This document shows positions 36,758 through 64,000 of a stretch of 64,000 nucleotides of DNA, in pieces. The position numbers and the translations under genes are program-made. Location: positions 6,112,221-6,176,220 of the forward strand of contig OX387192.1 in NCBI GenBank assembly GCA_947561395.2. The letters run 5' to 3'. Under the pieces are notes generated by a model. It was not told where the DNA came from. It saw only the letters and a list, made by a program, of their open reading frames with translations, and did not search any database. The stretch is from Buxus sempervirens. Its lineage: Eukaryota > Streptophyta > Magnoliopsida > Buxales > Buxaceae. Each line of letters opens with the position of its first letter. Position 1 is the first letter of the stretch.

Positions 36758-37549
36758 AAGTGTCCTCATGGGCCCCACAATGCCACCGTCGTTAAAGCGA
36801 AACGTCAGTGACGTTCGTTTTCAAATAAATAAAAAATTTCCAGCTCAGTCGTCTTCAAACAAAAGGGTTTGAGTTTTTCTAAAATGAAAAAAAAAAAGTT
36901 CAACTTGTTGTCAATAACTAAAGGGTTTTAAGTCAATCTTCTACTGCAAAAATTGACCAACCGACGGATTGGAACCATAACTAAAAATCAAGCTTGCTCG
37001 GTTCTGACCATATCTATTATTTAAAGCAAAGTTAAAACCAAAAAAAAATGACACGTTGAAGTAAGAGAGATCAGTCGACCCCGGAAGGTGTGAAATTCCA
37101 AGATTGATTATACTCAGTTCAAAGAGCTTCCATGTCTCCAAAAAGAGTGAAGGAATCACATTGTTTCAGTAGTGGGTAATCTAAAATCTTCTTAGTATTA
37201 GTTTCCATATTTTCTTAGGATTTTTTATGTACAAATCAAGAGCCCACCAAAAGCATATGGCAAGCTTTGTACATTGAAATCTAAGGGTTACATATTGTGA
37301 ATTTGAATAAGTTTTAAGGTGTTTTAGATATTCTTAAAAGTTTAGGGTATAAAAGAAATTTCATTCATTTTCCTTCTCTTATTTTCTAAAACTTCCATTT
37401 CAACAACCACCAGTGTTTATGTTTCTTTATATGTCTTCGTCTTACAATTTTTTATGAGTACGGTTTCTTGCAATGCTACGGTGTTAACTTCTGAGAACCT
37501 TTACATCTGAAAATGACCATTTTGCCCTTGTCAACAAATTGGGCCTATT

Positions 37550-38990
37550 GATCGGCCCTATTCAAACTTGACTCAATAACAGGTCCCAACACGCTCAGAA
37601 CCTTTAATTTGCAGAAACCCAAAACATTTTAACAGAATACCACATGAAGTGAGTAAAATAGTCCAACCAAATCTATAAATGGGAACCTGCAACGCAGAGT
37701 GACCCGGGGTGTTCACGAACTTCCCTGGGTCATAACCGGGTCACTTAGCCAGAACCTCTAAAAGCAGACCAACCTATCACATGTGTCTATCTATACCTTT
37801 CATCTTTGAGAAAATTAGATAGTGGCAACTCCAAAACCGGCTAAGTGAACCCCACATCTAAAAAAAAAAAAACATGAACAAAACCAAAACAAGTCAAAAA
37901 AGTGCTACACCCGGAGGGACACACGCACAGCTTGGCGACTCCACTGGGGACTGACCCAACCCGGTCGGATTTGAATTGGACCAAGTTGACTCACTTTAGG
38001 CATTTATGCATGCACACACACATGACACATGTGCACACACACACACATACACATCCACACCCATGCATGCATAGCACACAATCATGGAAACCGGGCCCCC
38101 ATGTGCACACATGAACATGAACATGCACATGCACATGCACATGCATAACACGCATGCGTACACATGCACATAAAACACAGTGGGTGTCGTTTATTTTGTT
38201 GTTTGTGTACATAACATGTGCACACACAAGCACGTAAGCATATGACACCATGGATGCTTTTATTTTTCTATATATATTATTTGCACCATGAATGCCATTT
38301 ATCTTTTGTACATAATATTTGTGTGGGGTGATGCGCACGAGGGAGTGTGCAGATGAGCCTTCTTGAGTGTTGCATTAACATGCATTGCATAGCCATTAGT
38401 TGTTTACTTTAGCAGCCATCCCCACTTGTGGAAACTAAAACAATGTGGATGAGTAACCCCGCTTGCCCTTGGCATTACCTGGGAAGGTGGAGGCGAAAAC
38501 CCGCTCTAGGTTGTACTAGACCAATGCACCTCTGGCTTATGCGAAGGAAAGCAAGGGTGAACCAATCTGGCCCACGCTATACAAGCTACGACCTAGGTGG
38601 ATCCCTCCCTTTTTACCCAAAACAATCATGCATACGTGCATTGATGAAGTAGCATGCTTTCTGTTGAATGCTAGGGTAAAAACTAAACAAAAAATCTGCT
38701 AAAAATAAAGATTCCATGAGGGGGGCAGCAACACCCCACTTTCTTTTGCAATTTTGAGTTACCCCTAGTACGTGGGCCCAGCAAGGCCTAGAAAATAGGA
38801 AGCCTTCCCATTTGGTCAGGAGAACCACCCCAGACCCACATGCATCCGAGTCTCTGAGAGACGGTCGGGTCTATCCCGCTAGGTTGGTTAGGATGCCCAC
38901 GTAAGCAATCAAATCTCATGGCCCCGATCATCCACGATTGAACAGCTCAGATCTTCAGCATCCTTCAAAGCTGAAGGCACCCTTGTACAT
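37550..38990 (+). mobile_element. Tat-like leader fragment (fossil)
   Basis: TGGCGACTCC at 37933-37942, followed by ACTGGGGAC, is the tRNA-Arg-type primer site of Tat/Ogre elements. The following GGCATTACCTGGGAAGGTGG and GCGAAAACCCGCTCTAG resemble a Tat-type leader. CA/TG-rich repeats fill 37998-38160. No polyprotein is visible. Confidence 0.4.
37998..38160. repeat. CA/CATGCA-rich microsatellite
   Basis: Mixed (CA)n and ATGCAC repeats. Histidine/threonine-rich frames over it are low-complexity artefacts. Confidence 0.9.
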
Positions 38991-39104
38991 TTTCAGGCCC
39001 ATGTAGGCCAAGTTGTAATTTTCATCGGCCCATGTATGCCCATGTTGGCACTACACCATATGTTGGGAATGTTCTGTCCTCTTCTTACGTTGTGGTGTGA
39101 ACAT

Positions 39105-39365
39105 GGAACTTGTTGGCACCACACCATAAGAGGCATGAAGCACATGCCCAAGGGTCACTCGCCAACGTAAAACGCATTACCACAATCATATGCAGAGCAT
39201 GAGCAATCCAATATATAACTTCCAAATGTTTCACGGTCATTTTGTTTAGTCCTATGCTTATGTTGTGGGCACCACAAGGTAAGCTGTACACTATAAGTGG
39301 CATGCAACACATGCCAAAAGTTCATTTGCCAATGTTAAACGCGTTGCCACGGTTATACGCGTTGA
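39105..39365. repeat. Diverged tandem duplication
   Basis: Two related units (about 39108-39200 and 39256-39360) share GGCACCAC, GGCATG, ACACATGCC and AACGC landmarks in order. No gene is seen. Confidence 0.5.
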
Positions 39366-39544
39366 AACATGTTTAACATTGGTAAGAGAATGATAAGAAC
39401 ATACTTCGTACTTACATTGTTCTATCTGTGTTATTGGTAGTGGCACTAGGTTGGAATGATCTATAAATCATTTATTCATACGACTGTGTCTACATGTCCA
39501 AAGCATGGAATTGAAGCCCACTAACGTTGCAGTCGTAGATGTGA

Positions 39545-40134
39545 CAGTGTGCCCATGAGGAAAGGGAGTGCTTAAGAGAAGACAATCACAAACCTCCCAT
39601 CATTCAGGACGGTATTTTGTCAGTTGTCTAGTAAATTTCACAAACCTTTGTGTTTTATGGCATATAAATTATTTATTTTCCAACAAGCTTTATGTTCATT
39701 ATGGTGATGGAGATAATGGATGTGGGTTTTTCGTCTGGTGTGATAAGCCCCGCATTTGTGAGTGTGAAAGGGGTCTATGTCAAGTCTTGATCACAAAAAC
39801 AAAAATAAAATAAAATAAAAGGTAGGACCAACAGCCAATAAATTTTATATATTGTAATACAATGTTATTTTAAATGGGTGTTAATACTCTAGCATATGTG
39901 TTCATGTTTATTATAGGAGGAACACAGGTGCAACTTCTTTTCATGGTTTGAGGATAGGAAAATCGGGGGATCGAGAAAATCTTCTATGAGGAATAGCATT
40001 GGATAAAATCGAAGCATCGTATGGGAGCTCGAACGTTGATTGCTAGAAGAAGAGCGTGAACATGCAAGAAGGATGTTAGACATCTATCAGCAACTGCTAC
40101 AGGACCATAACAATGTGAAGCTAAGGGATTAAAA
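39545..40134 (+). pseudogene. GRF zinc-finger gene, decayed (copy 2)
   Basis: Finger 1 is VCP-stop-GKGVLKRRQSQ, TSHHSGRYFVSC (39547-39632). After a likely intron come NGCGFFVWCDKP and the start of finger 2, CECERGLCQVLITKT (39707-39800). A third piece, CNFFSWFEDRK (39926-39960), closes finger 2 and is followed by a charged, stop-broken tail. GRF zinc fingers bind single-stranded nucleic acid in proteins such as TOP3A, NEIL3 and APE2. One TGA replaces a probable CGA in finger 1. It sits in the core of the long-inverted-repeat transposon. Confidence 0.65.
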
Positions 40135-40746
40135 TGAAATTAATGGACGTCAATGTTACAAATATAGGAACATGAAGAAAAAGAATATAATTTGGCAAGC
40201 CTAGACTTCCATTCCAAATCGCACAAATTGTATCAATCAAATCATAGAGGACAAAACTTTTCTAGTGAATCCTTTGTATTAGTGACCATGATGATAAGAC
40301 TCTTTGATTTTTTTGGATTTGTTCCATTTGCTCATCTAGTCATGGCTATAAATAATTTGTACAAACACTTCAATCAGGACACCAACCTTAAGGGTCTCTA
40401 TTTGGTGAAAGAGTGCGAGAACATTCTTACAAGAAAAATGCACAAAATTACAACAATACAATCACAATTTCAAGGGGATACGAACCTTAGTTGTGTTTGT
40501 AGCCAACTAAGAATGTGCTCATATCAAGGGGATACGATAAGAAGATTTTAGATTACTCACTACTGAAACAATGTGATTCCTTCACTCTTTTTGGAGACAT
40601 GGAAGCTCTTTGAACTATGTATAATCAATCTTGGAATTTCGCACCTTCCAGGATCCACTGATCTGTCTTACTTCAACGTCTCATTTTTTTGTCTTTTTTT
40701 TTGTTTTGGTTTTAACTTTGCTTTAAATCATAGATATGGTCAGAAC

Positions 40747-42481
40747 TAGAGCTGTAAGTAGGGCGGGCTGGGCTGGGTTTCAATGAGTTCGGGCTCAACC
40801 CTAACTAAAATTGGTGAACCCAAACTCTCCTCGGCCCGCCCTAACCCAAACTCTTTGAGCCCAAACCCAACCCTAAAATTATTTCTTGAGTTCGGGCTGG
40901 GTTCGGGCCAGCCCAAACTTTTTTTTCTACTTGATACAATGATACATTCACATATATAAAACTACAATATTTCGATATATATAATAAAGTTTATTGGCAT
41001 ACATTGACTTGTTTGTGTATTAACTTGAAAAAATGATCTCTATAATCCACCAAACTTTTGATATGTGTAAAGAGCCTTAGAACAAAATATTCACTAAGAT
41101 ATTTATGAGTTTCACATGTCTTCCAATCTAATGCAACCATCCATCATAACGCATGGAATTAACAGCAATACAACAAATACAGTAGCATAATTAATCCTAA
41201 CAAGGAATCCTCTACTCTCAAAGAAACAATAAATAGAAAATGATGATTTGATTAGCAAGGCATTCCTACATTTCCCACTCAATCACTATTTCACAAAAAT
41301 TGCAATGTTGCATACAGGACCTACCCCATTTGAAATTCCAGAATTAGTTTTATTGCATTTTCACGTTATTTAAGTATTCAAACTTTAATCTAAAAATAAT
41401 ACCTTTTACAAAATCAATCAACTTTTGTAATTTTAAATAGACTTAATATTCATATTTCCTATCTCTTCCAATTACTTTAGAATCTACGTTTTTTTTTTTT
41501 TTTTGGCTGAGTTAGAATCTACGTTTCAAATATTAGAACCACAAAATTATGTAAGAAACACATAACTCATTTGCATATGACCAAACAAGAACAATAAATC
41601 AAGATTTTAGGGGATATATATTGATGTTAAAAATAACATAAAATAAAATACTACTAAAGTAACAAGATTTTCTGTTTTGCTACCTTATTGGAAATCAAAT
41701 TTTAATGAAATTTTGCATCTAGCAGTAAAAGATTGGGGATTGAAACATCTGAACTAACTTTGTAGTCAAAGAGGTAAATAATTTTAGATTATATGATGCA
41801 TAGCCGAGGAAAAGAAACAAACCCTCCCAATCACACATTAATGGATCTTATCCAAATCGAATACTAGAAAAGAGAGGAATTAAACAGTACCTGAAAGCAG
41901 TGAACAAATGGGGAAAGATGAGATGCCCGATTTTACAAAAATAGCAATCGCAAATCCCTTGTGACTTGTGAGCGATGGATCTATATCACAAATCCCTTGT
42001 GAGCAATCGCAAATCCCTTGCTGCTGGAACTGTACCCCACTGTATTGACAGCGACGCCGACGGCAACTATATTGCTAGCTCTTGCCGATTGAGCTCCTTT
42101 GTTGGGGGTTTGTCTAGCTAGGTTGTCTTTGAAATGTGAGGTATTGATAATAGAAGAGAGGGACAGTAAGTCACTGAGAGGGGCGAGCAATTCCAACTTC
42201 CGTAATAAAGATATGGGAGAAGACAAGAAACTTTTAGGTTTGCAGGACACAATCGTATGGAGGTTTGCAGGAGGGGGTTTTAGTGGTATATATACTTCGG
42301 GTTACTCGGGTTTTTTCGGGTTGTACCTTGTGAGCCCGAGCCCAACCCATACTCAACTTCGGGCTCAAGATTGAGCCCGGCCCAAACCCAAACCCAAACC
42401 CAAACTTATTTCTTAAATCGGGCTGTTATTCGGGCTGGGTTGGGCGGGCTTCGGGCGGTCCGGGCCAAACTTACAGCTCTA
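40747..42481. mobile_element. hAT-like non-autonomous element, TSD GTCAGAAC
   Basis: Ends TAGAGCTGTAAG and CTTACAGCTCTA are perfect inverted repeats. The 8-bp TSD GTCAGAAC lies at 40739-40746 and 42482-42489. The opposite arm of the surrounding transposon shows the empty site. Subterminal GGCGGGCTGGGCTGGG-type and AACCCAAAC-type runs repeat near both ends. No transposase is seen. Confidence 0.9.
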
Positions 42482-42927
42482 GTCAGAACTGAGCAAGCTT
42501 GATTTTTAGTTGCGGTTCCAATCCGTCAGTTGGTCAATTTTTGCAGTAGAAGATTGACTTAAAACCCTTTAGTTATTGACAACAAGTTGAACTTTTTTTT
42601 CTTTTTAGAAAAACTCCCTTTTGTTTGAAGACGACTAAGCTGGAAAATTTTTATTTATTTGAAAACGAACGTCAAGAACGTTTCGCTTTAACGACGGAGG
42701 CATTGTGGGGCCCATGAGAACACTTGGCGTCCTCTCCTCAACGTAGTAAAAATGGAGTACGAGATTTTGGAAAAGGGGATGCGGCTCCGTTTTCTATGGG
42801 CTCACTGACACAATGTACAAAAAAATTTGATTTTAACACAATGTTACTGATGGCTGAGCTAGATGATGTGGGGGTTAAAATAGGGATAAAAGTACAGGAC
42901 ATGACCTGCTCCCCCTCTTTTGCAATT

Positions 42928-43849
42928 AGTCTTCAAAAGACACATTTTTTTGCCAATAAGATTTTCTTGGCACGTTTTTGGCAATAGCCAAGAAAAGTTA
43001 CCCTTTTCAATAATTTTCCCCATAATAAATTTGCTCTAATTAAAAAAAAAAATTTCTATCTATACTACTTTTAAAAGCTCAAACTACCTTTAAGTGTTTT
43101 TTATTTTTACTTGAAATGCATTCTTCTAAAATCTTTATTTAATTTTAAATTAATAAACCTTGATTCTATAAATATTTAGGATAAAATTTTAATTAATAAA
43201 ATCCTATTAAATTAGATAAATTGTATAAAAGAATTTAATTATAAATTTTTAAAAGACTTTAATTAAACCTTAATAATAACGATTTCATATATTTATCTAT
43301 TATTCTAGAATATTTAATTTTAAAACTACTTGTACTTTATCAAAAAATATTTTAAATAGAATTATTAATTTCAAAATTGATTTTTTTTATTATCTAGGCG
43401 AATCTAATGAAATCTTACTAACTAGATAAACCTTAGTTATCTAAAAGATTTTCAATTAAATAATACAAACCTAAATTATTGATAATAATAATTTAGTATA
43501 TTTACTTATAGCTGCAAATATAAGGCAGCATTTTATTGCCACCAAAAATGCAAAAAAATGGATATGGTAGCACTTTTATATATAATCATATTCTGCAACA
43601 GGGATCAGTGGCATAGCCAGGATTTTTATTTAGGGTGGGCAGGGCAAATCTTTGAACTAAATGATCATGATTAAAATAAGTGTAGTTTTTCCTCTTGTTG
43701 ATCAAAGTAAATAGTTGATACAACTAAAAAACAGAAAAAAAAACAAAAAACAAAAAACAAAAACTACAGGTGCGCTCGTCAGCAAGTAAGACTCAAGAGC
43801 CAAGGGGAAAAGAAATAGAATAATAGAATGAGCGGAGAACCAACCTGGT
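42928..43849. other. AT-rich noncoding stretch
   Basis: No gene or clear element was recognised between the long-inverted-repeat transposon and the Copia LTR. Confidence 0.5.
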
Positions 43850-46440: not shown

Positions 46441-47215
46441 CCCACGATTAATCGTGGAGTTAATCCTGACTTAACAGAAACTCATTTTTTGGGGTTTTCA
46501 CTCAGGATTAATCGCCAATCCTCAGGATTAATCGCCAGGTCGGGGTTTGAAATATTTTTGGCTGTTTTCAACGTGAAAACTCTTACAATTCATCCATAAC
46601 CTTTCCAACACTAAATTTGATGATCATACATCATCCCAAATCCACAAGAACACAATTTAACACATGAAACCTCATTCCAAACACAAAACTCATACCAAAA
46701 TCTGGAGTATGATTAATCTAGGTTGCAAACACATAATAATCAATGGAAAACAAACCAAGAGTATTATAAATCAAAACCTACAAGTTTTAGAAGCAAATAC
46801 CAACATGCAAGATCATTTCTTCAAAATCAATCAAACCCTAGAGAGAGAATACGAATTTTGTATTGAAGGGTTTGCTACTTACTTGTTAATGGAGAAGCAA
46901 AACTTCTCTTCAAGCTCCCCTCTTCTTCTCCTTCAAGCTTTTCAAATGAGCTCCCACTCTTCTTCTTATTCTATACGTCCAAGGCAAGAGAAATGGGTTT
47001 TCAAACACTTAATTAGAAATTAGGGCATCCTTTTATATGCCTAAGTTTTGGGTCTTTCAAATCTGCCCCTAAACAAGGCTTTTATTAGACTAAAACCCTT
47101 GGGGGTACCTTAGTGTTAAGTATGGGAGTACCTTATTGATAAGTAGAGGGTACCTTAGTGTTATTTGCAGGGGTACCCAGGTGTTTTAAGGGGTTTTTCC
47201 TTAGCTATTTCAAAA

Positions 47216-47351
47216 CAACTGGGATCCTATACAGCCTTTATCTGCAGACCAATATGCAGCCCAACCGCGATTGCGACAAGTGTCCACTTGCTTTTGAACA
47301 TAACGGCTTCCAGCGACTAACGGAAACGGAGTTTAAACTCATGCGTCAACG
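47216..47351 (+). repeat. MULE left TIR
   Basis: 136 bp, 94% identical to the inverted right end, beginning at CAACTGGGATCC. The TSD ATTTCAAAA is immediately to its left. Confidence 0.92.
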
Positions 47352-48202
47352 TCGCTCTCCCTGTTTTCTCTCTCTTCTAAGTTGAAGAGGGAAAACTTCC
47401 CTCCAAAATACAACCTGAGCAATTTTGGAGAGGAGAGAAATTTTGGGACTCTGCGCGGTTGCAAACCGATTGCTAACATTCCTGAGCTGCGTTCGAAGAT
47501 CTTCAAACGTCGAATTCAGGTTTACAAAGAACACCGGAAGGTTCGTCGCGTTGTATTGGCTGCATCCTCTGTTTAATAGATTGGTTTGAGGATCGGAAAT
47601 TGATGGAGTAAGCAACAGAGCGAGTGATTTCTTTTTCTTAAAGAAATCTCCATTCTCACTGTTGTATCCTTTCTTTTCTTTTCCCCTTTTTTCATATTTT
47701 GTTTTTCTCTGAAATCAATCGGATTGTGGTTTGTATTCTAGGGGGTTGAAATGCTACTAATTGTTTTATCTACTTCGTTATTGGAATTCATGCACTTGGA
47801 TTTCACAATTGGGGGTTTCCCTTGGAACATTGGGTTTGGTCTGCGTGATGGGTCTTGCCATGGATTTTGTTCACTGGGTGAATTCCATCCTCTCTTCAAT
47901 GGATTTGACGTTGGATTTCTGGAGTTTCTTCTGATTTTAATTTCAGAATTTGATGAACACGGTTTATGCTTTATAAATATTTTCCCCCTTTAATCTTCCC
48001 CTTATGGTATTGATACATATTAGCTTGGTGCTGCTGAAAATGTTGCATGTTTTTCACTTCAACTTTAATTTTCCTTTTAATGGCTTATGTTGTGATGATA
48101 TATGATTTTGTGTTATTTACTATACCGACCGTGAAAGAGAATTTATGTCGTAGTTTTCCTTTGTGGTCCATTTCTACTTTCATGTTATGTGAACTCTACT
48201 TA

Positions 48203-48233
<31 letters not shown>

Positions 48234-48802
48234 TTGGTTATTGGCAGTTATCTGCATGCCAATGGTCTTTGGATTCTACCTTTTTTTTTCTTTTCTGTAC
48301 TCATTTTTGTTTAATTTTGTGATCCAGTTTGCACTTGTAATGAGATGCATTACTCGTGGATCAAATGGAATACAGTTTGTGCTAGATTTGATTTTTTTTT
48401 ATTCACCACTGGTTAAGTAACTATTTCCTTAACAAGCATATTCAGTTACTGTTGGAGGGTTTTACTTTTTATCATGATGGAACTTTTATTACCTTTGGGT
48501 TTTTATCATTAGTATTTTTGAGTCCTTTATGTCCTAAATCTTAACCCTCCTCATTTTTTCCCAGTTATTTATTTCTAATCATATAGTTGTAGTTTGTTTT
48601 AGAATTAAATATTAGTGCCAAATGATCAAAGCTACCAATTTGCTCGAAAGTTGACTTGCATAATAATTGCCTGCTTCTTATGGATTTTGGCTTTCTGAAA
48701 TGCTGTAATTAAACTGCATATGTGGTCATCTATTGCTGGTCCTTAAGATATTTCATTTTAGATTGCAATAGTAATTAATTTCCCATATATATTACATTAC
48801 AG
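47352..48802 (+). other. MULE 5' region, probable leader exon and intron
   Basis: Purine/pyrimidine-rich DNA after the TIR, possibly the transcript start and first leader exon, with a donor-like site GA-GTAAGC near 47610. A long AT-rich intron-like stretch follows. (TTA)n at 48201-48234. No conserved coding sequence was recognised. Confidence 0.4.
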
Positions 48803-48929
48803 GTTCTAACAAATGGGATAGAAGTGAAGCTACAGAGAAATGCCCTCAGTGTGATTGAAGCTCCAATTGGTCACGAGGATGACGAAGACTTTGCTTGCTA
48901 TAACACGCAGTGGAATGGCTCCGATATTG
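48803..48929 (+). other. Candidate exon of unknown origin
   Basis: Bounded by TTACAG and GTAAGT. It reads VLTNGIEVKLQRNALSVIEA, PIGHEDDEDFACYNTQWNGS, DIG without a stop. It does not join the transposase frame, so it is either a 5' leader exon or a captured host exon. I do not recognise the protein. Confidence 0.4.
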
Positions 48930-49020
48930 GTAAGTTTAGCTTGATACAGCATATAATCTACTTTATTGTGAGAATGGCTCAGAATTTGATTTCTGTTAGC
49001 TTGAGAACTTAAAGTGCTGA

Positions 49021-49367
49021 TAAAGGTCTGTCTTGTTAAGGTTTAGGTTTATGACTAGTGATTTTTGTAGAAAGGGACTTTTTTAAGAATTTGACCCAAA
49101 CCCTGCCCTGTTTTAGATCATTTGGACAAACTTTCAATGCTACGCTGTTATGCATTTTATTATTGTTTTCAATCTTCATGAATATGGAACCAGATGTCCC
49201 TAGCTAGTGAGATCATACTAGGGAAACAATTCGGGCACTCCCCTGTTTTGCTACCTGAGCACATCAGGCTCCTCCTCCATGTTGCAGAATAGGACTCCAC
49301 ATGCTCCTTCATGCACTGACCATGTAGCAGTCAGTAAGAACCTAAACCTTAACAAGATAGACCTTTA
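49021..49367. repeat. MITE-like inverted repeat
   Basis: 27-bp ends TAAAGGTCTRTCTTGTTAAG plus GTTTAGG are inverted at 49021-49047 and 49341-49367 with one mismatch, 347 bp overall. No clear target duplication. It lies in what is probably an intron of the transposase gene. Confidence 0.55.
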
Positions 49368-49721
49368 GTTTCACTTATATCTTCCTACCATTTCAGTTTC
49401 ACCTGGGGCTTAAGGAAATAATTTTGCAACCAACTTTAAGTCTTGGGAAGTGCTAGCTGCATGAAAGCAATAAATAATAATAATAAGAGTACAATATTTT
49501 ACTTTATTGACTACTATTTTACCATTTCAGATTCTAATATATACATTGGTTCATGCCCTTTATTTAGTTATTAGACACTCTTGAAATATTTTACTTTATT
49601 GACTGCTATTATATTTGTGTATTTATCTATTTTCTTTTTGTGTTTGTTCTCTAATATGCTTTCTAGTGAGAAAGCATATAAGAGGTGCAGTTTGGTTACT
49701 TGGGAAGACTTATCAGTGAAT

Positions 49722-52453
49722 ATGTCGACCCAAAAGGAGAACGGTGAAGAGAATGTTGAGTTGGTTATGTCGACCCAAAATGAGAACGGTGAAGAGAATG
49801 TTGAGTTGGTAGTTATACCTAATGTTGACCTGCAGTATGTTCCTACCATTGGGAAAGAGTTCGTTTCACCTGAGGAGGCATATGATTTTTATAATGCATA
49901 TGGTAGGGTTGCAGGGTTTAGTATACGGAGAAGCTTTTCTAAAAAGGATAGTGGTGGTGTGATAATGAGTAAATCATTTTGTTGTTCAAAAGAAGGATTT
50001 AGGGTTGAGGCATCTTCCATTCGGACTAGGCCGATTGCACACACGAGGTGTGGATGCAAGGCTTTTATGACAGTCCGATTGAATCTTGACGGGAAGTACT
50101 TTATTTCGGCTTTAAATGAGAGCCATAACCATGAAATGCTTCCGTCCAACATGAGTCATTGGTTGAGGTCATAAAGAAGAATTACCCCTGCCCAGGCAGC
50201 TCAAATTGAGACTGCTGAAGGTGCTGGATTGACGCCAAGAGCTGGTATGGAAGTTTTGAGTACACAAGCTGGCGGAATTGAAAATGTTGGATTTGTGCGT
50301 GAAGACTACAGGAACTACTTATGTACAAAGAATAAGATACGGATGTAGAAGGAAGATAGTGGTGCACTTGCTGCTTATTTTCAGAAGAAGCTTTGTGAGG
50401 ATAGGGCATTTTTCCATGCTATTGATATGGATGAAGATGACATGATCACGAATATATTTTGGGCAGACGGTCAAATGGTTACAGATAATCGTTATTTCGG
50501 AGATGTTGAAAGTTTTGATACGACATTCAAGACAAATACTGAAAATCGGCCACTTGCACTTTTCGTAGGATTAAATCATCATAGGCAAACAGTTGTTTTT
50601 GGTGTTGCCCTCCTTTATGAAGAGAGCAGTGATGCATTTTCCTGGTTGTTCAAGACTTTTGTCAACTGCATGCATGGAAAAGAGCCACAAACAATTATAA
50701 CAGATCAAAATTAGGCAATGGCAAAATCCATTAATTCCGTGTTGCCTCGAACAATTCACCGGAATTGCATTTGGCATTTGTATCAAAATGCCGCAAAGCA
50801 TCTCGGTTCTCTATTTCACTCTTGTAAGGGTTTTGCTGAAGCTTTTAAGCACTGTATATACAAGTGTGAAAACGATTCCGAGTTTGAAGAGGCATGGCGT
50901 GACATGATTGATAGGTTTAGCCTTTCTGATAATGCGTTGTTGGAAGCAAAGTATAAGGAAAGGGAGAAGTGGTCACTAGCGTATGGTCGAAATTATTTCT
51001 GTGCTGATATGCTTAGTACTCAGGTATCAGAGAGCATGGATGCCTCAATAAAAAATGCCTTGAACAGACAAAAAAGTATGGTGCAACTTCTAACCCAGAT
51101 TGATGTTGTGGCGAGGCATCGATATAGTGAGTTGGCAAGTGATAGCAACATGCTGTTGAAGAGAAAAGAAGCAGATCTAATACAACCACTCTTTAAACAT
51201 GCATGCAAGGTGTACACTCCTACAATATACGACCGGCTTGAGAAGGAAGCAATAGGCATTTGGTCATTCAAGATTCTAGACTCTTCAAAAAACGGGGATG
51301 TTGAGATATTTAAGATTGTTAATAAGGGTGAAAGCATCCAGGAGGAGCACACAGTGACATATAACAGTGTAGATAGAGATGTGCAATGTAGTTGTAAAAA
51401 GTTTGAGTTTGCGGGTATCTTGTGCAGGCACATCTTCTTGATTTATTTTTTTAAGGATGTTACTAAGATCCTAGATAAGTACATCCTAAAAAGGTGGAGA
51501 AGAGATGCTAAAGATGGATTACAATGCACTATGTCACGTGGGTCACCAAGTGTAAGTAGTGAGACGGGTAAGATATCGAATCGATATTCTTATGTTTGTT
51601 CTACTTTGGTTCAAATAGCCTCTAAGTCAGCTACCTGTCAAAAAGCAACCGATTATGTTATTGATATGGCAACAAAGATGAATCAGGAGGTTGAAAATAT
51701 TGTGAAACAGACTGTTTTTCAAGAGCTTCTGAAGGACAACAACGCTTTGGGCAGCAATGTATCATTTGAAAATGAGCAAAATTCTTATGTGGGTGGAAGA
51801 CTTGTCAGTGAGGACCATATGAATTCTATAGATATTAATGTAGTTGAGGAAGACCTTGGTGGGGAACAACATTGGTGGGGAACAACATCTTGATGCAAGT
51901 ACGGGAACTAATCCGTTAGTTGCCATTTCACAAAAGCGCATTGAAAATGCAAAAGGTGTCAAGGTAAAGGAAAAAGCCAAACGTGGTGGTATGAGTCTTC
52001 ATAGGAAGGTGGATGCATTAACTCAAGCAACGAGGAAAAAAAGGCGCAAAGCACAAAACAATGAGTGTGGTGGTGCTGAGCACGTGGTGCCACCTACCCA
52101 AAGATCAATGATAGTGCTTCCTCCATCAGCTGAATCTTCTAAGTTTTCGTATCCTCATGTTCAAATGGTGTGTCTACTAATCTAGTCAATATCTCCCTTT
52201 TTTAAAATTGAACTTTTTCCTCCTCCACCTTCCCCCCCCCCCCCCCCCCAAATTTCAATACATAATTGCTAACTTCCCTTTTTTTTATACACAGATGCCT
52301 GCACACTTTTTGCATCCTTTCCTATACAGTACAAATTCACCCATGGGATCATATCAGCAATTGAGCGATGGTCGATCTAGCATGATGCAGATGCTACAAG
52401 AAGCAGAGATGTCTAGCCAACCTTCACCCCGTTCTCCCAGGCGAACTTTGTAA
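49722..52453 (+). pseudogene. FAR1/FRS-like MULE transposase, inactivated
   Basis: From ATG 49722 (two tandem 15-residue copies of MSTQ(K/N)ENGEENVELV) the frame holds a FAR1-type zinc-binding domain (residues ~44-140: EEAYDFYNAYGRVAGFSIRR, GCKAFM, SHNHE). A MULE transposase core follows (~245-345, with SFDTTF and IITDQN aspartates and the FEEAW region), then a SWIM zinc finger (~553, CSCKKF...GILCRH). Exon 1 ends at 52167 with a GT donor, and exon 2 is 52295-52453. In-frame stops are TAA 50172, TAG 50346 and TAG 50712, each one C-to-T step from a Gln codon. An exact 16-bp tandem duplication (51856-51887) shifts the frame near the end. Without these the gene would be about 862 codons, usual for FRS/Jittery-type transposases, which cut and join DNA at the TIRs. 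An expressed host FRS gene is unlikely, given the TIRs and TSD. Confidence 0.88.
52232..52249. repeat. Poly(C) run
   Basis: 18 consecutive C in the last intron of the transposase gene; length is prone to assembly error. Confidence 0.95.
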
Positions 52454-55332
52454 TGTCGAGAAGGTTAGTGTCCGTACTTGTTGGTATCATGTATGTTCTT
52501 TTTCTTGAAACAATATATTCTTCGTAGTGTAATTTCACAATTCTGGAATGGCCTGTCAGTATTCTTTTAGCTAGCTTCATTTAGCTTGCATGTCAGTCTT
52601 CTTGTTTCAGTGTTCTCCTTTATGTGATTTCATTATAAGAATTTGGAGGACTATTTTCATATTATGGAATTTAAATTGGACTCTTGTGTTTAGTTATGAA
52701 GATCTTTAACAGTACATACAGAGAGCTGGAAGGACCTTTCCAGATTTTGAATTACCATAATCATTTTTCTCTCTTTGAATTATTGATTGCGTTTGTCATA
52801 AGGGGATAATATATCTATACTAACCATTTCCTTACATAGTAATTCATAAGGGTATGCTTTTGACATAATTTATACACAATCACTTGCCTTTGAGGTCCCT
52901 TGATTGATTTCTGTCCACAAAGAGGGGGTTCCACCCCTCTGGCCACTCACTTAACATAAGGTTTACAATACTGAAACCTAGAAGTAACCATGAATCTTTT
53001 GGGTACTATTGGCTTAGATATGCCATGAAAGGTGCTGGAGGTTATTAAAGAGATGTGAGCTTGTGGCTTGCCTTGTTTATTTTTGATCCACTGGTAAAGG
53101 CTCTGCTTCAAATGTTGTATAGATCTAGGAAAAGGGTTCTGCTTACAAGATAGTTCCTTGGTTCTCTGTCAAGTATGCTGCGTGACAATATTTTCGATCA
53201 AGAGATATTCTTGCTTTTCCAGTTAGGAAATTTTTTTTTTAAATTTTGACTTTAATTTGCTCTATTTGTAGTGATTACAAATAGAGCAAATCGTGTCTGG
53301 TGTTGGCAAATCGTGTCTCCTTCTGAGATTTTCTGTAAGTTTTCAAAAATGTCATTATTTTCTCTTATTTCAATTAGATACATTTTGCACTTTCTGAATT
53401 GGTGGTATATTTGGATAACTTCTAAATCCAGTTGATTTTATATTCACCTCCTTAAGTCAACATATTTTTAAATTACAATGAATATGTTTCCTGATGCAGA
53501 AATGTTAAAAAACTTTTTGCCCATGTGACTGATTTTATATTCACCTCCTGGAAAGGCAGTATTGTTAAGCTTTAGAGATTGATTGTATAGTCTGTTCATT
53601 CAAGTTCTACAAAGGTGGAAGTTTAGAGTTTTGGCTGTTTAGGATCAGGCTAAGAGACCCTTGTGTCCATATTCTTTTATTTTTGTCTTGGGGTGGATGC
53701 CCTTTAGACCATGGATACTAGGACATTTCTCACATTGAGTGATTGCGTTATTTTGTCAATGCAGTTATAAAGTGTTTTCTGTAAATACTGATATTCTTGA
53801 TGTAAGTTGTTGGTTCTAATATCTAGCTGAAATTTTCATCATATTTTGTTATCTTAATCCTTTTGATGGTTTTATTTAGAATAAAGTTAAATCATGTCTT
53901 ATTTAAAACTCAATAATGAGATGCAATATTCAGCAGCCTGAGTATTCCCCTAGTCTGATGCTAGTATTTGACCTTGTGCTTTTAACTATGAAGCTATAAT
54001 CTTCCCATACCTCAGGAAGCTGATTTTTGTTGAGAGTTGAATATTGTAATTTTCCAAAGATAAATAGAATGTGCCAAGATGCAATATTGATTATGAACTA
54101 ATTAAACTGGTATTTATTTTTTATATAAAGTGTCATGCTTCAAATAATATTTCAAGCAGTGAGTGTCTTCCACAGTTCAGGCCTCGTTTTAGATGTGCTT
54201 TTGCTAATGGACCAGGTTGAATCATAATGGGTGGTCATACTGATTCATATTATTTAGTAACTTAATTTCGGGATTTCGTGCATGTCTATTCTACTGATCT
54301 ACGTTGGGATGAATCATACTGATTCATATTATTTGTATCTTTTTCAGGTGTTTAGGAGTCCTGTTGCACCTTTTGTTTTTTTCCTGGTCATGTTCTTCCG
54401 AGTGGCCTCAACAAGATCAATAATGGGTGGTCATGTTCTTCCGAGTGGATTGTTTTATGTTTTGGCTTATTTCGGTTGGCTCCTTTTTAATTAGGTTGCA
54501 ACCCAAGTTGGAAGATATCTGGTTACCATGTTTAGCACTGGAGTAATACTTGGCATTGGATTTCAGATGTCAGGTTTGCGAACTTGAAATTCCGTAGGTG
54601 GAAGCTATTTTGATGATGTTGCTACTTTGTCTTTTTTATTTTATTTCAATCTTTCAATTTGATGAAGGTGGAAGCTATTTTGATGATGTTGCGAACTTGT
54701 AATTTTGCATATTGCTAGATGAAATTTAGAAACCAAAAGAATCCTTATCATCCTTCACTCAAGTTATTGAAACACCTGATCTTGTTCTAAAGATTGGTCC
54801 CAAAGATCGTAAGATTTTTGTAGAGCCAGAGAATCTATAATTCTGTATCAGTCTTAAGTGGGGTTAGAAGTGTTTGGCTCAAGATTACTGGTGGGACAGG
54901 AGGCATAGTGCATTCAGAGCACAATTACCTGCCCAAAATTTTGCCAACAGTTGAACCTGAAAACTTGTGACCTCCAAGGGGATTTGAGTCATTTGACACA
55001 ATGTTGGGTCAGCAGGGGATTTGACACCATGTTGGTTCAGGAGGGCTTCCTACATTCAAGATGATTCAAATCATGTCTCCAATGTGTATGAATCGAGGCA
55101 ACAAGCATTGCTGATTTTTTGGTCTTTCTGATTACATTCAATTTTCCAAGAAAACCACCTTATACGCAGTAAAAAGGGATTTAGTTCAATCTGTTTGCTG
55201 CAATTCCACAATACCAGTATCGTTTCTTCCCCCGGGTAAATCACCTACAGGTGATTTAACAACATTCAAAAGAAACTGATATAAAACAAACAAGATAAAC
55301 AAGTACTATGACCTACAATGATGCTTAATGAG
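52454..55332. other. MULE central noncoding region
   Basis: No gene was recognised. It holds a perfect 16-bp hairpin (53255-53270 and 53276-53291, arm ATTTGCTCTATTTGTA, 5-base loop). Short local duplications (GGTGGAAGCTATTTTGATGA at 54598 and 54668; GGGTGGTCAT at 54229 and 54425) also occur. Confidence 0.5.
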
Positions 55333-55916
55333 TGTAACGCCCCAGACCCATAACCAGCAAGATATTGTCCGCTCTGGGCCCACGGGCCCTCACGGATTTG
55401 TTCTCAAGGATAACACGAGAAAACTTCCCAGGGGTCACCCATCCTAGCAGTGCTCTCACCCGAGCACGCTTAACTTTAGGGTTCCCAGGGGATTTAGTCC
55501 CGTGTTGTTCCTTAAAAGGCCTCTTGCTAATTTGGGGGTCTTAAGACTACTTATAGCATCCCCGAGCGTTGTGGGATCCCAACCATATGCACATCCTCGC
55601 CTGGTAGCTCGCCACTGTGGTAGCTCGCCCAGGTCTCTCACCCCGCCCACATCACAGCCGCCCACTCAGACAGCCAGGATGTCACATAGATGCTATAAGT
55701 AGTCTTAAGACCCCTAAATTAGCAAGAGGCCTTTTAAGGAACAACACGGGACTAAATCCCCTGGGAACCCTAAAGTTAAGCGTGCTCGGGTGAGAGCACT
55801 GCTAGGATGGGTGACCCCTGGGAAGTTTTCTCGTGTTATCCTTGAGAACAAATCCGTGAGGGCCCGTGGGCCCAGAGCGGATAATATCTTGCTGGTTATG
55901 GGTCTGGGGCGTTACA
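55333..55916. mobile_element. Palindromic Cassandra-type LTR pair with 5S sequence
   Basis: TSD ATGAG at 55328-55332 and 55917-55921. On the minus strand one full LTR runs TGTGACATCC (55686) to GGGGCGTTACA (55333), 354 bp. A second, 5'-shortened copy (228 bp, 55689-55916) faces it in plus orientation. The two 228-bp arms (55333-55560, 55689-55916) differ at two positions. Each arm contains a 5S rRNA-like segment with the Pol III internal control motifs GTTAAGCGTGCTCGGG and GGATGGGTGACC, the hallmark of Cassandra TRIM elements. No interior or primer site lies between the copies. The near-identity suggests a young fossil. Confidence 0.8.
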
Positions 55917-55921
55917 ATGAG

Positions 55922-56337
55922 GCAAAAACTGAAAAACAACAAAGGCTCTACATCGTCATACCTAAAGTACTGAGCCACATACCTAAAGTATTAGAATAGT
56001 AAAATCCTGAGTTTGGATCATGGTAATAACCATTAGCGTGATTATAGTAATAACCAGTATCATCGTCATACTCCCATCTTGCTATAACTATCAGTTAGAA
56101 CGGTACCACAACTAACAGCAAAGATTCATATAAATAAGATTTATATGCCCAAAAATAGCAAAGATTCATATAAATAAGATTCCTAAAGCCTATTTAGGAA
56201 ATTGCTACCAAACGACATTAGTTAGTGTTCAACAGAAACAGAAATTGTCTTCTAGGAAAAAAAGTGATAAAAAAAACATGCGAAACTCTATTTACAAGAA
56301 CATTCCTAAACCCTAAAGACAAGAAGAATCACTGTTT
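55922..56337. other. MULE noncoding region downstream of GRF gene
   Basis: 3' flank of the minus-strand GRF gene. AGCAAAGATTCATATAAATA is repeated in direct orientation at about 56118 and 56157. Confidence 0.5.
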
Positions 56338-57014
56338 TCATTTGTCATTTAATGACAACCCATCCAATTTGTCTAAAATCTTTCGACCTAAGTTTACAAC
56401 TCTCTTCGACGCTTCAACTTCCACTTCAAGCATTCTTTTTATAGATTCAACGCGTTGGAGGGTTGACATGTCATGGCATTTTGGATCGGCTGGCTTGGCT
56501 GGATCAAGAGTAGCATCTTCAGGATTCTTTTCCACCCAACTAAAATACCCACAACCGTGATCTTCCAATTGTAATACAAGAAATTAAGTATCAATATATC
56601 ACAATATAATAAATATCAAACCACCAATAAGAGTAACAGTAAATACCTTGGATACAGTACATGCATAGAAGCATTGCCCAATTGAACCACGCTTCTTAGA
56701 GGTTAACACTCTGCATGGCCCTCTATTTCAGGGACACATCTTGTACTTGTCAATCCACAAAAAGAAAAAACAGTCCTTACTGTCTTTCTACATCAATATA
56801 TAAATTGTCTTTAGAATCTATATTCGATTAATGAACGCCTTTTTATGACAGACAAAAAGTGTTTAAGCTAGACACATACCCAATATGGGCATCGAAAAAA
56901 ATCCCTGCCGGGATTTTTCTCCGTCTTTGATGTTTTAATCACACAATGGCCTTTTCCACACGGACATAGGATGTTACTGTTTGCTAGCGTTGACGACGAA
57001 GAAGCTTCAGTCAT
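56338..57014 (-). pseudogene. Two-finger GRF zinc-finger gene of the MULE
   Basis: Three exons on the minus strand: 57014-56880, 56787-56647 and 56568-56338 (45, 47 and 77 codons with stop, phase 0 throughout). Finger 1: ILCPCGKGHCVIKTSKTEKN, PGRDFFRCPYW, then KDSKDCFFFLWID. Finger 2: MCP-stop-NRGPCRVLTSKK, GQCFYAC, then HGCGYFSWVEKN. A charged helical tail (QRVESIKRMLEVEVEASKRV) ends in LSLNDK. GRF fingers bind single-stranded nucleic acid. One TGA sits where related fingers have Arg (CGA), and the last acceptor reads TTACAA instead of TTACAG; both are single C/G-to-T/A steps. The gene is convergent with the transposase, like mudrB in MuDR, and may be a helper. A captured host gene is the alternative. 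Confidence 0.78.
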
Positions 57015-58594
57015 TCTTGCTTTCTGTAAGACCTTAAGGAATTACTATTTGCTAAAATCGTTATTATAGTAATTAAAATATGACTACTATATTTTAAAAC
57101 ACCACTTCCAAGTGGAAGAAAACCTAAACCCAAGTGAAAGAAATGTAATGCCGGGTATCTACATTGGGCCAGACCATACTATGCCTATTACATGGACTAA
57201 AAACCCAAATACCCTAAGATCAATGACTCACACCATGAAGTTATGGAAAAGAGTAATGGGGCAAAATTTAACGAGAACAACTTTGAGCATCAAAAAGATA
57301 TTTTCCAAAGTTATACAAAAATCCTTGTTCCAAAGTTATAAGATATTTCATACTAATGCAATATACTAATCATGCTTATAAATATCAAAAAGTGCAGGCA
57401 TTATTAATAATTATATAGTCAAAACAGCCAATATTTTAGCATCATAATTGCAGTCAAATTTTCCATATTTTTATGCAAAGAAAAATTAATTATCAGAATA
57501 TCAATACTAGCGCTCAACACAAAGATATTTCCTATTTCAGTCAATTTATGCTCATATTGCCATGTATCAGTTAATCCAAGGTCATCCTGCTTGGTTACTC
57601 AAATATGCAAGGATTCAGGGGTTTTCATGTTTAATACATATCATTAAAAGTCTTGTGTACGCAAACAACAAATTTATTTGTAGTTGCAAATTTACATAAT
57701 AATTTACTTATAAAAGAAGCATCAGATGAATCTCTAAGAAAAAAAATTGTTCAAATTCAGATACTCGTGTGAGTCACCAGTATGTATTTTAGGAGGATCG
57801 AACAGAATTAAACAAAATCAATTATCTTCTTGTAAATCCAAATTGTGGCATGAGTAGATCCAATTCTATTTGTATCGTATATTGCAGGTTTCATTGTGAA
57901 TTTCTGCAAGTCCTTAATTCCATCTAAGGAAAGATATGATAAAATATCTATAAATTCAATTAAGTAGCAATTAGTAAAGGAGTCCCATCAAATGCATTGA
58001 TATCATTATTACATATATGAAGGAGAGGTAACCAGGGTAACCAATTGGCATAAGACAAAAATGTTTTAGTTAAATTTAGGTTTACGACAGGGATAAGCAA
58101 AGAGTCATTACTTCTTTACATTGATCTTTCTTTTTCCAATGAATAATAAAGGATTGTGTCAAAATTTCAAGAGGAGTATTTACAAGGGCTGGGAAAAGAG
58201 TATAATGACAGAAAAGTAGGAACTATAATATGTACAGAACAATAACAAATATGGAGATGCTATTCAGCTAACATCTCATCTGATGAGGGTCTCCTAAATA
58301 AGACTAGGTCCAGGCATCCTTGTCCTAATATATCCACCAGCCTGCACATTGCTGAATGAGATGTCCAAACAATTATCAATTTTTTTTTCACTGATCCCAT
58401 TCAGTTGTTTCCATCCGTGTTTTTCGTTACCCGTATGTGTTGCAGTGTCTTGATACATAAGAAAGGGGTGGAGCTACTACCTTCAATGTAGGATATCAAG
58501 AAATACAAATTAAATTATTTCCTAAACAATTATCATCTTCAGAAATGGAAAAAGATGCAAGAATCATACCTTCAAATAGTTTGTCCACAAGTTG
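57015..58594. other. MULE noncoding region upstream of GRF gene
   Basis: AT-rich; presumably the GRF promoter and the right subterminal part of the element. No coding sequence was recognised. Confidence 0.45.
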
Positions 58595-58850
58595 AAAAGA
58601 GGAGGAGAAGAGCAAGAGACCTGCTTTCGTGGAGAAGAGCAAGACCTGGTATATGGTTTCTTGGCTTCCGTGGAGAAGAAGAGCAAGACCTGGTATTTTT
58701 GTGCATAAACTCGTGGAGAAGAAGAGCAAGATCTGGTATGGTTTTGTGGAGAAGAAGAGCAAGATCTGGTATGGTTTCGTGAAGAAGAAGAGCAACACCT
58801 GGTATTTTGGCAAATGGTTTCGTGAAGAAGAAGAGCAGGACCTGATTTTT
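58595..58850. repeat. Subterminal minisatellite of the MULE
   Basis: About six tandem units of roughly 35-45 bp with core GAAGAAGAGCAAGACCTGGT, 85-340 bp inside the right TIR. Open frames across it are repeat artefacts. Confidence 0.8.
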
Positions 58851-58933
58851 ACCTCGACTGCCGACTGCGTCTGCTTTTCACCTCGACTGCTGGGCCATTT
58901 TTGAAAACGAATTTTAAAAATTTCAAAAACTTC

Positions 58934-59069
58934 CGTTGATGCACGAGTTTAAGCTCCATTTCCGTTAGTCGCTGGAAGTCGTTATGTTCAAAAGCTAGTG
59001 GACACTTGTCGCAATCGCGGTCGGGCTGCATATTGGTCTGCAGATAAAGGCTGTATAGGATCCCGGTTG
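58934..59069 (-). repeat. MULE right TIR
   Basis: Inverted copy of the left TIR, 128 of 136 positions identical. TSD ATTTCAAAA follows at 59070-59078. Confidence 0.92.
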
Positions 59070-59078
59070 ATTTCAAAA

Positions 59079-60253: not shown

Positions 60254-62020
60254 GAGTGCATCAGCAATCTGATCTTTGCTGGAGAGAAATGATACCTTGA
60301 GAGAGCCATTAGAAACACAATCCCGAACGAAGAGATAATCAATATCGACATGCTTTGTGTGAGAATAAATAATTGGATTACATACAAATATGTTGCTCCC
60401 AAATTATCACACCATAGTGTTGGTGAGTGTGGTAAAAAGACTCCCAATTTAGCAAGAAGTTGTTGGATCCAGATTAGTTCACAAAGCAGCATTGGCCAAG
60501 GATTTGTATTCTGCTTTAGTGCTATGGCGGAAAATAGTTGCTTGCTTTTTGGAATACCAAGATATGAGATTAGAACCAAGATAAATACAGTAAGCATTGA
60601 TGGAACGATGATCATCTAAGCACGCCCTGCCTAGTCAGCATTCGAGTATGCAAAGAGCTGAATGGTGGTGGAAGGTTGAATGAAGAGACCAAAGTTTATT
60701 TTATGTTTCAAGTATCTCAGTCGTCTTTTGACTACTTTCCAATGTTCTTCACGTGGGCTGTGCATGTATTGGCTAACCTGACTCACAGTGAAGGCAATAT
60801 CGGGACGGGGAAAAGATAAGTATTGCAAACTTCCAACAATGTTGCGATACAGGGAAGGGTCAGGGAAGGGAGAATTGTCGGTGGTTGAAAGTTTGGTTGA
60901 GGTGGACATGGGAGTAGCCATATTTGACTTGTTAAGTATATCATTGATGTAGGACTTTTGTGAAAGAAAGAGACCAAGGGAGGTACGATGAACCTCAACA
61001 CCAAGGAAGTAAAGTAAGGGCCTAAGGTCTTTTATAGGAAATGAGGTATTTAAGAATGAAATAACATGATGCACAGCTGAATCATTCGAGCCAGTAACCA
61101 AGATGTCATCTACATATATGAGAACATAAATTGATAAACCAAATTTGTCGTAGATGACGGTTGAAGAGTCAGACCTTGAGGGTGAAAAACCAAGATCAGA
61201 AAGCCGTTTTTTGAGCCTTGAATACCAAGCTCATGGGGCCTGCTTCAATCCGTAGATAGCTTTCTTCAGGTGACACACATAGTTGGGGTGTTTGAAACCC
61301 CAGTGGTTGAGCCATATAGACCTCATCAAAGAGAGACCCATGGAGGAAAGCATTTTGGACTTCTAGTTGATGAATCGACCACTGCGCAATCACTGCCAGA
61401 GATAAAATAAGACGAATGGTAGTTGTTTTCACAACTGGACTGAATGTGTCATGAAAGTCAATGCCAGCCTGTTGATGAAACCCCTTGGCGACTAGATGAA
61501 CCTTTCAACATTCAATAATTCTGTCAACAAGGCGCTTGGTTCAACAGATCCACTTGCAACCAATTACCTATGGATAAGAGGAAGCTGGAACGAATTCCTA
61601 GGTGCCATTAGATTAGTAACACCTGGAATTTAGCATTCATGGCAACATGCCATTCAGGATACTTTGTTGCTTCCAAGACACTAGTAGGCTCTTCAGGAAC
61701 ACATGAGAGATTAGTTAAATGTGCATGAGGTTTTGGCCATCGAATTGTGCCATCCGAGTTGAGTTTGGGATGATGAATATTGTGTCTTGATCGAGTGATG
61801 ATAGGTGAGCCGGTTGGGAATGTGGGTGTCGGTAACAGAGGAGGTAGAGCTTATGTGATTGATTGGGGTTGAATGAGAATTTGGAAATTGGGAAGTAGGA
61901 GAAGAAGAAGGCACGTGAGATTTGGAGTGTAGGGGTGTTGTGAGCTCATGTGAAGAGATGGGTTCGATTGATGGAATGGGTGCAAGGGCAGTAATGGAAG
62001 AAGTAGGAGGTGAAGTGAAT
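60254..62020 (-). mobile_element. Copia fossil: polyprotein remains
   Basis: The minus strand shows reverse transcriptase and RNase H of Ty1/Copia type: [19 protein letters not shown] (61196-61432), YFLGVEVHRTSLGLFLSQKS and IVGSLQYLSFPRPDIAFTVS (60631-61101), then [16 protein letters not shown] and [11 protein letters not shown] (60254-60615). Upstream sequence to 62020 is the Ser/Thr-rich linker before RT. Several breaks. It is cut at 60254 by the solo LTR and at 62021 by another LTR copy; its 3' end lies at 43850-44402. Confidence 0.85.
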
Positions 62021-64000
62021 TGTAAAACCCCGACCCGGATTATATCTTAATTATTAAGCTTAATTATCTAAAGTGGAATTATTAGACTAATTAAGTACTT
62101 GTGTTATGAAAATGGGGTAAATGTGGATTATACTTGAGGATTTAGGGAAATCAATTGAACTTTATTGAAGTTATTAAGATAAGCTTAGTTAATGTTATTT
62201 ATTAATTTCAATTGGCTAAGATACCCTCCAATTAGTTTTAGTGAATTGGAAATCAAGTTTGAAAATTTTGAATTAAGTGTACCTAAAGTATCTCCCAAGA
62301 ACACCTAAAGAACCACCCAAGTATACCTAAGGTGCACCCAAGTATAACCCAAGTATACCTAGGGTACACCCATGCATTACCCAAGGTACCACCCAAGTAC
62401 ACCCATGTATTACCAAAGGTACCACCCAAGTACTACCTAAGGTACCCCTTTTGTATACGTAAGGCACCCACTTGTATTGCCTAAGATACCCCACTTATAT
62501 ACCAAAGGTACCCACTTGTATTGCCTACAATACCCCACTTGTATACCTAAGGTACCCATATGTGTTGCCTAAGGTATCCCACATGTATACCTAAAGTACT
62601 CCGTAGTATTACCTAAGGTACCCCTTTGTATTGCCTAAGGTACCTCATTTGTAATGCCTAAAGTACCCCACATGTATACCTAAAGTACCCCCTAGTATTA
62701 CCTAAGGTACCCCCTTGTATTGCCTAAAGTACGCCACTTGAATACCTAAGGTACCCCTTGTTTTACCTAAGGTATACCCCCTTATGTAGCTAAAGTACCC
62801 CTCTTATATAACTAATGTACCCCCTTTGTATAATTAAAGTACCCCCTTATATAGCCAAGGTACTCTCTCTGTATAACTAAAGACCCCTTTTGTATAACTA
62901 AAGTACCCCCTATATAACTAAGGTACCCCCATGTGTTTGCCTAAGGTACCCCTTTATCTTACCTAAGGTACCATTTTATTTTACCTGAAGTACCCCTACT
63001 GTTTCATTTAAGGTACACCCCTTATATAACTAAGGTATTCCCTTTGTATAACTAAAGTACCCCCCTTATATAACGAAAGTACCCCCTTGTATAACTAAGG
63101 TACCTCTCTGTATAACTCAAGTACCCACAATATACGTAAGTTACACCCCTTATATTACGTAGGGTACACCCTCCTTGTATTACCTAAAGGTACCCCCTCA
63201 TATAACTAAGGTACACCCCTTCTATAACCAAGGTACCCCTCTCAATATAACTAAGGCACACCCCCCAAGTATACCTAAAGTGTGCCCCTGAAATAACTAA
63301 GGTAAACTTCCTTGAAACACCATGGTACCCCTCAAATAACACTAAAGTACCCCCCACATAACACTAAGGTACCCTTCCTTATAACACTCGTGTACCCCCT
63401 TGATAGCCCTTAAGTACACCCAAGGGTTTAATGAGAATAAAAGCTTTGTTTAGGGGCAGATTTGAAAGACCAAAAGTTGGGCATATAAAAGGATGCCCTA
63501 ACTAAAATATCTAGTGTTTTGAGAACCCCTTTCTTTGTCTTGGACGTATAGAACAAGAGAAGAAGTTGTGAGAGCTTGCTTGAAAGCTTCAAGAGGAAGG
63601 AGAAGGAAAGGAGAGCTAGGAGAGGAGTTGTGCTTCTCCATTAAACAAGTAAGTAGCAAACCCTTCAAACTAAAATGAATTTATTGGATTTTCGTATCTC
63701 TCTCTTCTAGGGTTTTGATAAACTTGTAAATTGCTTGCATGTTGGGTTTTGCCTCTAAAATTCGTAGGGTTTTGGTTGTATAACTATCTTGTTTAGTTTT
63801 CTATTGATTTGCCATGGATTTTCGTATTTCTCTCTCCTAGGATTTAGATAAACTGGAAAATCACTTGTATGTGGGGTTTTGCTTTCCAAATTCGTAGAGT
63901 TTGGGCTTTATAACAGTATTGTGTATTATTCTATTGATTGCCATGGATTTGCAACCTCTATTGGTTATATTTCAGATTAGGGTTTGAGTTTGGGTATTTT
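62021..64000 (+). mobile_element. Second copy of the GGTACC-repeat LTR, runs off window
   Basis: It starts TGTAAAACCCCGACCC at 62021, the same start as the solo LTR at 60253 but on the opposite strand. A minisatellite at 62270-63430, TATAAAAGG at 63485 and downstream LTR sequence (CAAGTAAGTAGCAAACCCTT at 63650) match the other copy. The far end is outside the window, so solo LTR or full element cannot be decided. It interrupts the Copia fossil. Confidence 0.85.
62270..63430. repeat. GGTACC minisatellite, second LTR copy
   Basis: About 60 units of 15-22 bp around ACCTAAGGTACCCC with TTGTAT or ATATAACTA spacers. The unit sequence is variable, suggesting long evolution by slippage. Confidence 0.92.

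Follow-up and report, generated by a model that had tools for sequence, protein, structure and literature searches.

The locus analysed here raises the question of why a Mutator-like element (MULE) would carry a GRF zinc finger gene next to its transposase gene, that is, whether the second gene belongs to the element or is a passenger taken from the host. The role of accessory MULE proteins such as MURB is an open question, and a confirmed accessory gene whose product has a recognisable single-strand-binding fold would offer a direct and testable guess at mechanism; yeast assays exist for MULEs. The locus lies in a window of 64,000 nucleotides from Buxus sempervirens (contig OX387192.1, positions 6,112,221 to 6,176,220 of the forward strand), and all coordinates below are those of the window. 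We read it as a dead two-gene MULE whose GRF gene would belong, as a regular accessory gene, to a lineage of plant MULEs, a reading for which we consider the chances to be even.

The window contains a decayed Mutator-like element of 11,854 bp (47216-59069), which is surrounded by a repetitive region (Table 1). Self-comparison of the window revealed an inverted repeat (47208-47351 and 58934-59077, 93%), and the edges of the terminal inverted repeats (TIRs) were then set by reading. The two copies of the target site duplication (TSD) are identical at 9/9 positions and lie directly at both TIR edges, where a perfect 9-bp match would be expected by chance with a probability of approximately 4e-6 (4 to the power -9). 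Long TIRs with a TSD of 8-11 bp are a trait of the MULE superfamily and are present here. In addition, the target repeat recurs elsewhere in the window as a diverged copy in inverted orientation that lacks the element. When the joined element flanks were aligned with this empty-site copy (MAFFT), 360 of 493 aligned positions were identical across the junction, with 55 gap columns. The TIRs, the 9-bp TSD and the related site without the element establish that the 11,854 bp are a true insertion and not a chance pair of inverted repeats. A preliminary description of this DNA had proposed TIRs of 136 bp and a TSD of 9 bp, which hold at 128/136 and 9/9 positions; the range it gave, 49722-57014, covers both genes, but the element itself extends over 47216-59069. 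It had also described a FAR1-like MULE transposase on the plus strand and, facing it, a minus-strand GRF gene with three exons and two fingers, and both were recovered, the former by Pfam matches to FAR1, MULE and SWIM and the latter by a match to Zn_ribbon_GRF (1.2e-21). The lesions that kill both genes, the fold-back stretch between them and the second GRF gene of the window (all below) had escaped it.

Table 1. Positions of the element, its genes and other features of the window
Feature	Position	Strand	Remarks
Plant mobile domain	3628-4770		2.4e-14
Retrotransposon gag	14325-14825		9.4e-12
PNO1-like KH domain	19334-20050		1.5e-40
Second long-inverted-repeat structure	33380-42927	.	arms 88-92% identical
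Insertion in left arm of second structure	33580-36757	.	24-bp inverted ends GGGCTCGTTTGG...
GRF-B, second and more decayed GRF gene	39505-40135	+	in-frame stops; inside second structure
hAT-like insertion in right arm of second structure	40747-42481	.	8-bp TSD GTCAGAAC, ends TAGAGCTGTAA
Left TSD, ATTTCAAAA	47207-47215	.	9 bp
Left TIR	47216-47351	+	136 bp, 128/136 identical to right TIR
Broken FAR1-MULE-SWIM transposase gene	49722-52453	+	Pfam domains; exon borders by eye
Fold-back stretch between transposase and GRF-A	55333-55916	.	584 bp; 228-bp arms, 99% complementary
GRF-A exon 3	56338-56565	-	finger 2 end, charged tail, stop; preceded by TG, not AG
GRF-A exon 2	56647-56787	-	finger 1 end, finger 2 start; in-frame TGA 56730-56728; donor GTATTT
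GRF-A exon 1	56880-57014	-	start codon, most of finger 1; donor GTATGT
Sub-terminal repeated stretch in right end of MULE	58601-58850	.	self-matches 74-75%
Right TIR	58934-59069	-	136 bp
Right TSD, ATTTCAAAA	59070-59078	.	9 bp
Reverse transcriptase RVT_2	60634-61230		7.8e-17
Empty-site paralog (diverged inverted copy of target repeat without element)	62901-63560	-	site ~63290

Pieces of one reading frame starting at 49722 matched the Pfam families FAR1 (3.1e-22), MULE (2.1e-18) and SWIM (1.9e-5), and both the N-terminal FAR1 and the C-terminal SWIM matches exceeded the curated cut-offs. The MULE family (PF10551) was matched with 67 bits at 50349-50711, covering profile positions 3-72, and the remainder of the profile (75-99) was found in the next piece, beyond the stop at 50712, with a value of 0.0099 that is below the cut-off. 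The coding exon extends to 52167 and is followed by a GT-AG intron (52168-52294) and the last exon (52295-52453). Three in-frame stops interrupt the gene (TAA at 50172, TAG at 50346 and TAG at 50712), and a 16-bp tandem duplication (51856/51872) introduces a frameshift, after which coding resumes in another frame to 52453. The transposase gene is dead because of these stops and the frameshift, and this copy of the MULE is unable to make its transposase. MULE transposases use a DDE triad. By its transposase domains, the element would be a Jittery/FAR1-group-like MULE. Two further observations concern the start of this gene: a 45-bp tandem duplication (98%) is located at the beginning of the reading frame (49721-49810), and upstream of it an exon-like stretch with AG and GT borders (48803-48929) is perhaps a leader exon.

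The second gene, GRF-A, is convergent to the transposase gene (57014-56338, minus strand) and has three exons, spliced by eye, that encode two Zn_ribbon_GRF stretches. The exons join in phase 0 to give 167 residues, one of which is a stop; with X at the stop position, this query matched PF06839 (Zn_ribbon_GRF) in two stretches with 76.9 bits, above the cut-off of 25.9. Its charged tail is perhaps a coiled coil. Since a start, two fingers, a tail and a stop are all present, GRF-A is a whole gene and not a fragment. GRF-A is dead too, because it contains an in-frame TGA, which falls within finger 2, and because the border of exon 3 is not AG; the next AG after the in-frame start of this exon (56563-56562) would be out of frame. 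The transposase gene has 4 lesions in ~868 codons and GRF-A has 2 in 167, a similar decay, as if both had been coding until the element died. We also considered whether the element is a Pack-MULE, which would have lost its transposase and would carry fragments of host genes. This identity was rejected, as the element still has a transposase gene, although a broken one, and its second gene is full-length.

A fold-back stretch lies between the two genes, and each of its arms shows a weak full-length 5S-rRNA-like match (23.3 bits, below the gathering score of 38). GRF-A might also be a chance neighbor of the transposase gene that was inserted later between the TIRs, either alone or within a nested element. 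The window does contain later insertions, and weak inverted repeats bracket GRF-A, such as the pair 52815-52853 and 57031-57069 (39 nt, 74% complementary). However, this pair is short, of low complementarity and probably due to chance, and none of the high-identity inverted-repeat pairs of 49400-57400 brackets the gene. A later arrival of GRF-A, alone or in a nested element, appears highly improbable.

When the window was searched with the GRF-A exons, weak matches were found on the plus strand at 39547-39952 (best E 0.008). They correspond to GRF-B, which is located inside a second long-inverted-repeat structure. The arms of this structure (33380-33579 plus 36752-37194 versus 42927-42482 plus 40746-40538) are ~650 bp each, and both are split by later insertions; the ends of the hAT-like insertion resemble stretches at 16943-17113 and 17627-17712. 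We scanned the edges (33360-33399 and 42905-42949) for a TSD of 8-11 bp with at most one mismatch. The scan returned 17 near-matches of 8-10 bp, none of which was placed at mirrored arm edges, and thus no in-register repeat was found. A transposase remnant could be detected neither by tblastn in 33380-42927 nor by Pfam, which was applied to 20 of 22 listed internal ORFs with a length of 50 aa or more (the two left out, 37999-38190 and 38085-38267, are on the minus strand). The sole GRF trace in the Pfam search of these ORFs had a value of 0.036, and matches to TSP1 (0.027) and DUF6796 (0.039) were both under the cut-offs. Identification of the second structure as a MULE was set aside because neither an in-register TSD nor a transposase was found, and we file it as a long-inverted-repeat structure only.

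By eye, GRF-B has two fingers, the second of which is shortened by ~12 residues, whereas Pfam recognised one finger (2.4e-4, 21.6 bits), under the PF06839 cut-off of 25.9; the longest open piece scored 14.6 bits. Its exon layout matches that of GRF-A where it is readable. The starts of exon 3 correspond (EDHGCGYFSW in GRF-A and EEHRCNFFSW in GRF-B), and GRF-B has an AG acceptor at this place, its other splice sites being uncertain. The alignment of GRF-A and GRF-B had a score of 164, whereas none of 1000 residue shuffles scored above 31, and GRF-B is therefore taken as a decayed relative of GRF-A. The two share 45 of 142 residues, and codon-shuffled alignments gave a mean of 31/121 and a maximum of 41 identical residues, so that this identity exceeds the controls only modestly and tells less than the score. 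Over the 142 codons, pN was 0.485 and pS was 0.843. However, 25 of 300 codon-shuffled controls were as extreme, and we rejected pN < pS as proof of selection on the GRF gene. In each gene a TGA replaces the residue that follows 'CP' in a finger motif, at 56730-56728 in finger 2 of GRF-A and within 39505-39560 in finger 1 of GRF-B, which is probably a coincidence of decayed genes. Because GRF-B is housed in a long-inverted-repeat structure as well, the two GRF genes look like a recurrent element gene, which is likelier than a one-off cargo.

The accessory reading is favored by the wholeness of GRF-A, its accessory slot, the second GRF gene of the window and the like decay of both MULE genes. 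Against it are the single copy of the family examined, the GRF-A/GRF-B codon comparison that does not stand apart from its shuffled controls, the introns, the frequent capture of genes by MULEs, the one sub-cut-off Pfam finger and the shortened finger 2 of GRF-B, and the second structure without TSD or transposase. Several of these points belong to another explanation, namely that GRF-A is a captured passenger, taken from the host by transduplication as in Pack-MULEs and playing no role in transposition. GRF-A retains introns, which would be expected of a gene captured from the host, and host genes are frequently captured by MULEs; for example, ULP sequences, which may lie in either orientation, are described from MuDR-like as well as Jittery-like families (PMC2528002). 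Moreover, GRF is not listed as a part of MULEs, the term being absent from the main text of a MULE survey (PMC6446971), and genes for GRF zinc fingers are mentioned in plant papers like any ordinary gene (e.g., PMC7729826). On the other hand, a captured gene is harder to reconcile with a complete gene that lies convergent to the transposase in the accessory position and with another GRF gene in a nearby long-inverted-repeat structure. We regard capture as quite possible, although on the less probable side.

If GRF-A is instead a regular accessory gene, it would occupy the slot of mudrB and of Abermu ORFR, read inward from the right end. The closest solved structures to GRF-A are those of the tandem GRF of NEIL3 (7jl5, 2e-8; 7omk, 8e-7), followed by ZCCHC4 (0.017) and APE2 (0.12). 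Many DNA-binding proteins contain GRF fingers (PMC9266487), and in NEIL3 it is the GRF repeat, not the single finger, that is reported to bind short single-stranded DNA with high affinity (PMC9737245). GRF-A resembles NEIL3 in having two tandem fingers, but in NEIL3 these belong to a DNA glycosylase, whereas here they form a small separate protein. By analogy with NEIL3, the GRF-A protein may bind single-stranded nucleic acid. Its tandem fingers would bind single strands of DNA where the ends of the transposon are cut, or at gaps that arise during excision and integration, and the protein would assist strand transfer or gap repair. Such a helper role in transposition is plausible because the nearest solved structure is a tandem GRF that is described as binding single-stranded DNA. 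Alternatively, the protein might act on the silencing of the element rather than on DNA breaks, since one accessory protein of MULEs, vanC of the arabidopsis element Hiun, is known to have an anti-silencing role (PMC6446971). However, GRF fingers suggest a single-stranded nucleic acid as the target, and we consider an anti-silencing or regulatory factor very unlikely.

The accessory reading could be extended to a plant MULE lineage with a dedicated tandem-GRF, single-stranded DNA-binding accessory protein, in which case many 'host' GRF-type genes of plants might be such element genes or their descendants. This extension is tentative and we hold it to be rather doubtful. Plant genomes contain many GRF-type genes annotated as 'At4g04775-like', and the annotation of plant GRF-type genes would change if it were true. 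A comparative study, in its work on Asteraceae, named GRF-type fingers next to transposon domains among the enriched domains (PMC10359422), which fits mobile GRF genes without proving them.

A search for relatives of the element in viral contigs and in bacterial and archaeal genomes found none, which says little, as these collections are not of plants. Our searches of open-access PubMed Central showed no MULE that carries a GRF gene, and this is consistent with the view of the preliminary description that no MULE family with such a layout had been described. Among known systems, the Jittery group of dicots and monocots is listed with one ORF, FAR1, SWIM or CCHC domains and a TSD that is 'not indicated/8 bp' (Table 1 of PMC6446971). 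The Buxus element shares with this group the FAR1-MULE-SWIM transposase and a TIR length (136 bp) inside the listed range of 39-292 bp, but the group is listed with a single ORF and no GRF gene, whereas the Buxus element has a second, convergent gene. CitMule of citrus, counted in the Jittery group, has the same transposase domains and a 9-bp TSD (PMC4334395); unlike the 11.9 kb element described here, it is 6.8-6.9 kb long, and 'GRF' is absent from the main text of that paper. In the ULP-bearing MULEs of grape and melon, too, the transposase is followed by a further gene, which may have either orientation and occurs in Jittery-like families as well, but the cargo is ULP protease-like and not GRF, a term absent from the main text of the report, according to which ULP sequences were apparently taken up several times by MULEs (PMC2528002).

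MULEs are known in which an additional gene, encoded on the opposite strand, lies between the transposase and the 3' TIR (PMC9168764). In the element Abermu (Hvu_Abermu), the TIRs are 138-145 bp long and the TSD is 9 bp, and type II elements have ORFR in just this position; Abermu is nearest to MuDR in its authors' tree, and the main text does not contain 'GRF' (PMC9168764). Maize MuDR, with mudrA and mudrB, likewise has an opposite-strand gene pair inside long TIRs and a 9-bp TSD (PMC9168764), and the function of mudrB is given as unknown, the gene being apparently required for integration (PMC6446971). The Buxus element differs from MuDR in the FAR1 domain of its transposase, and GRF-A is likened to mudrB by layout.
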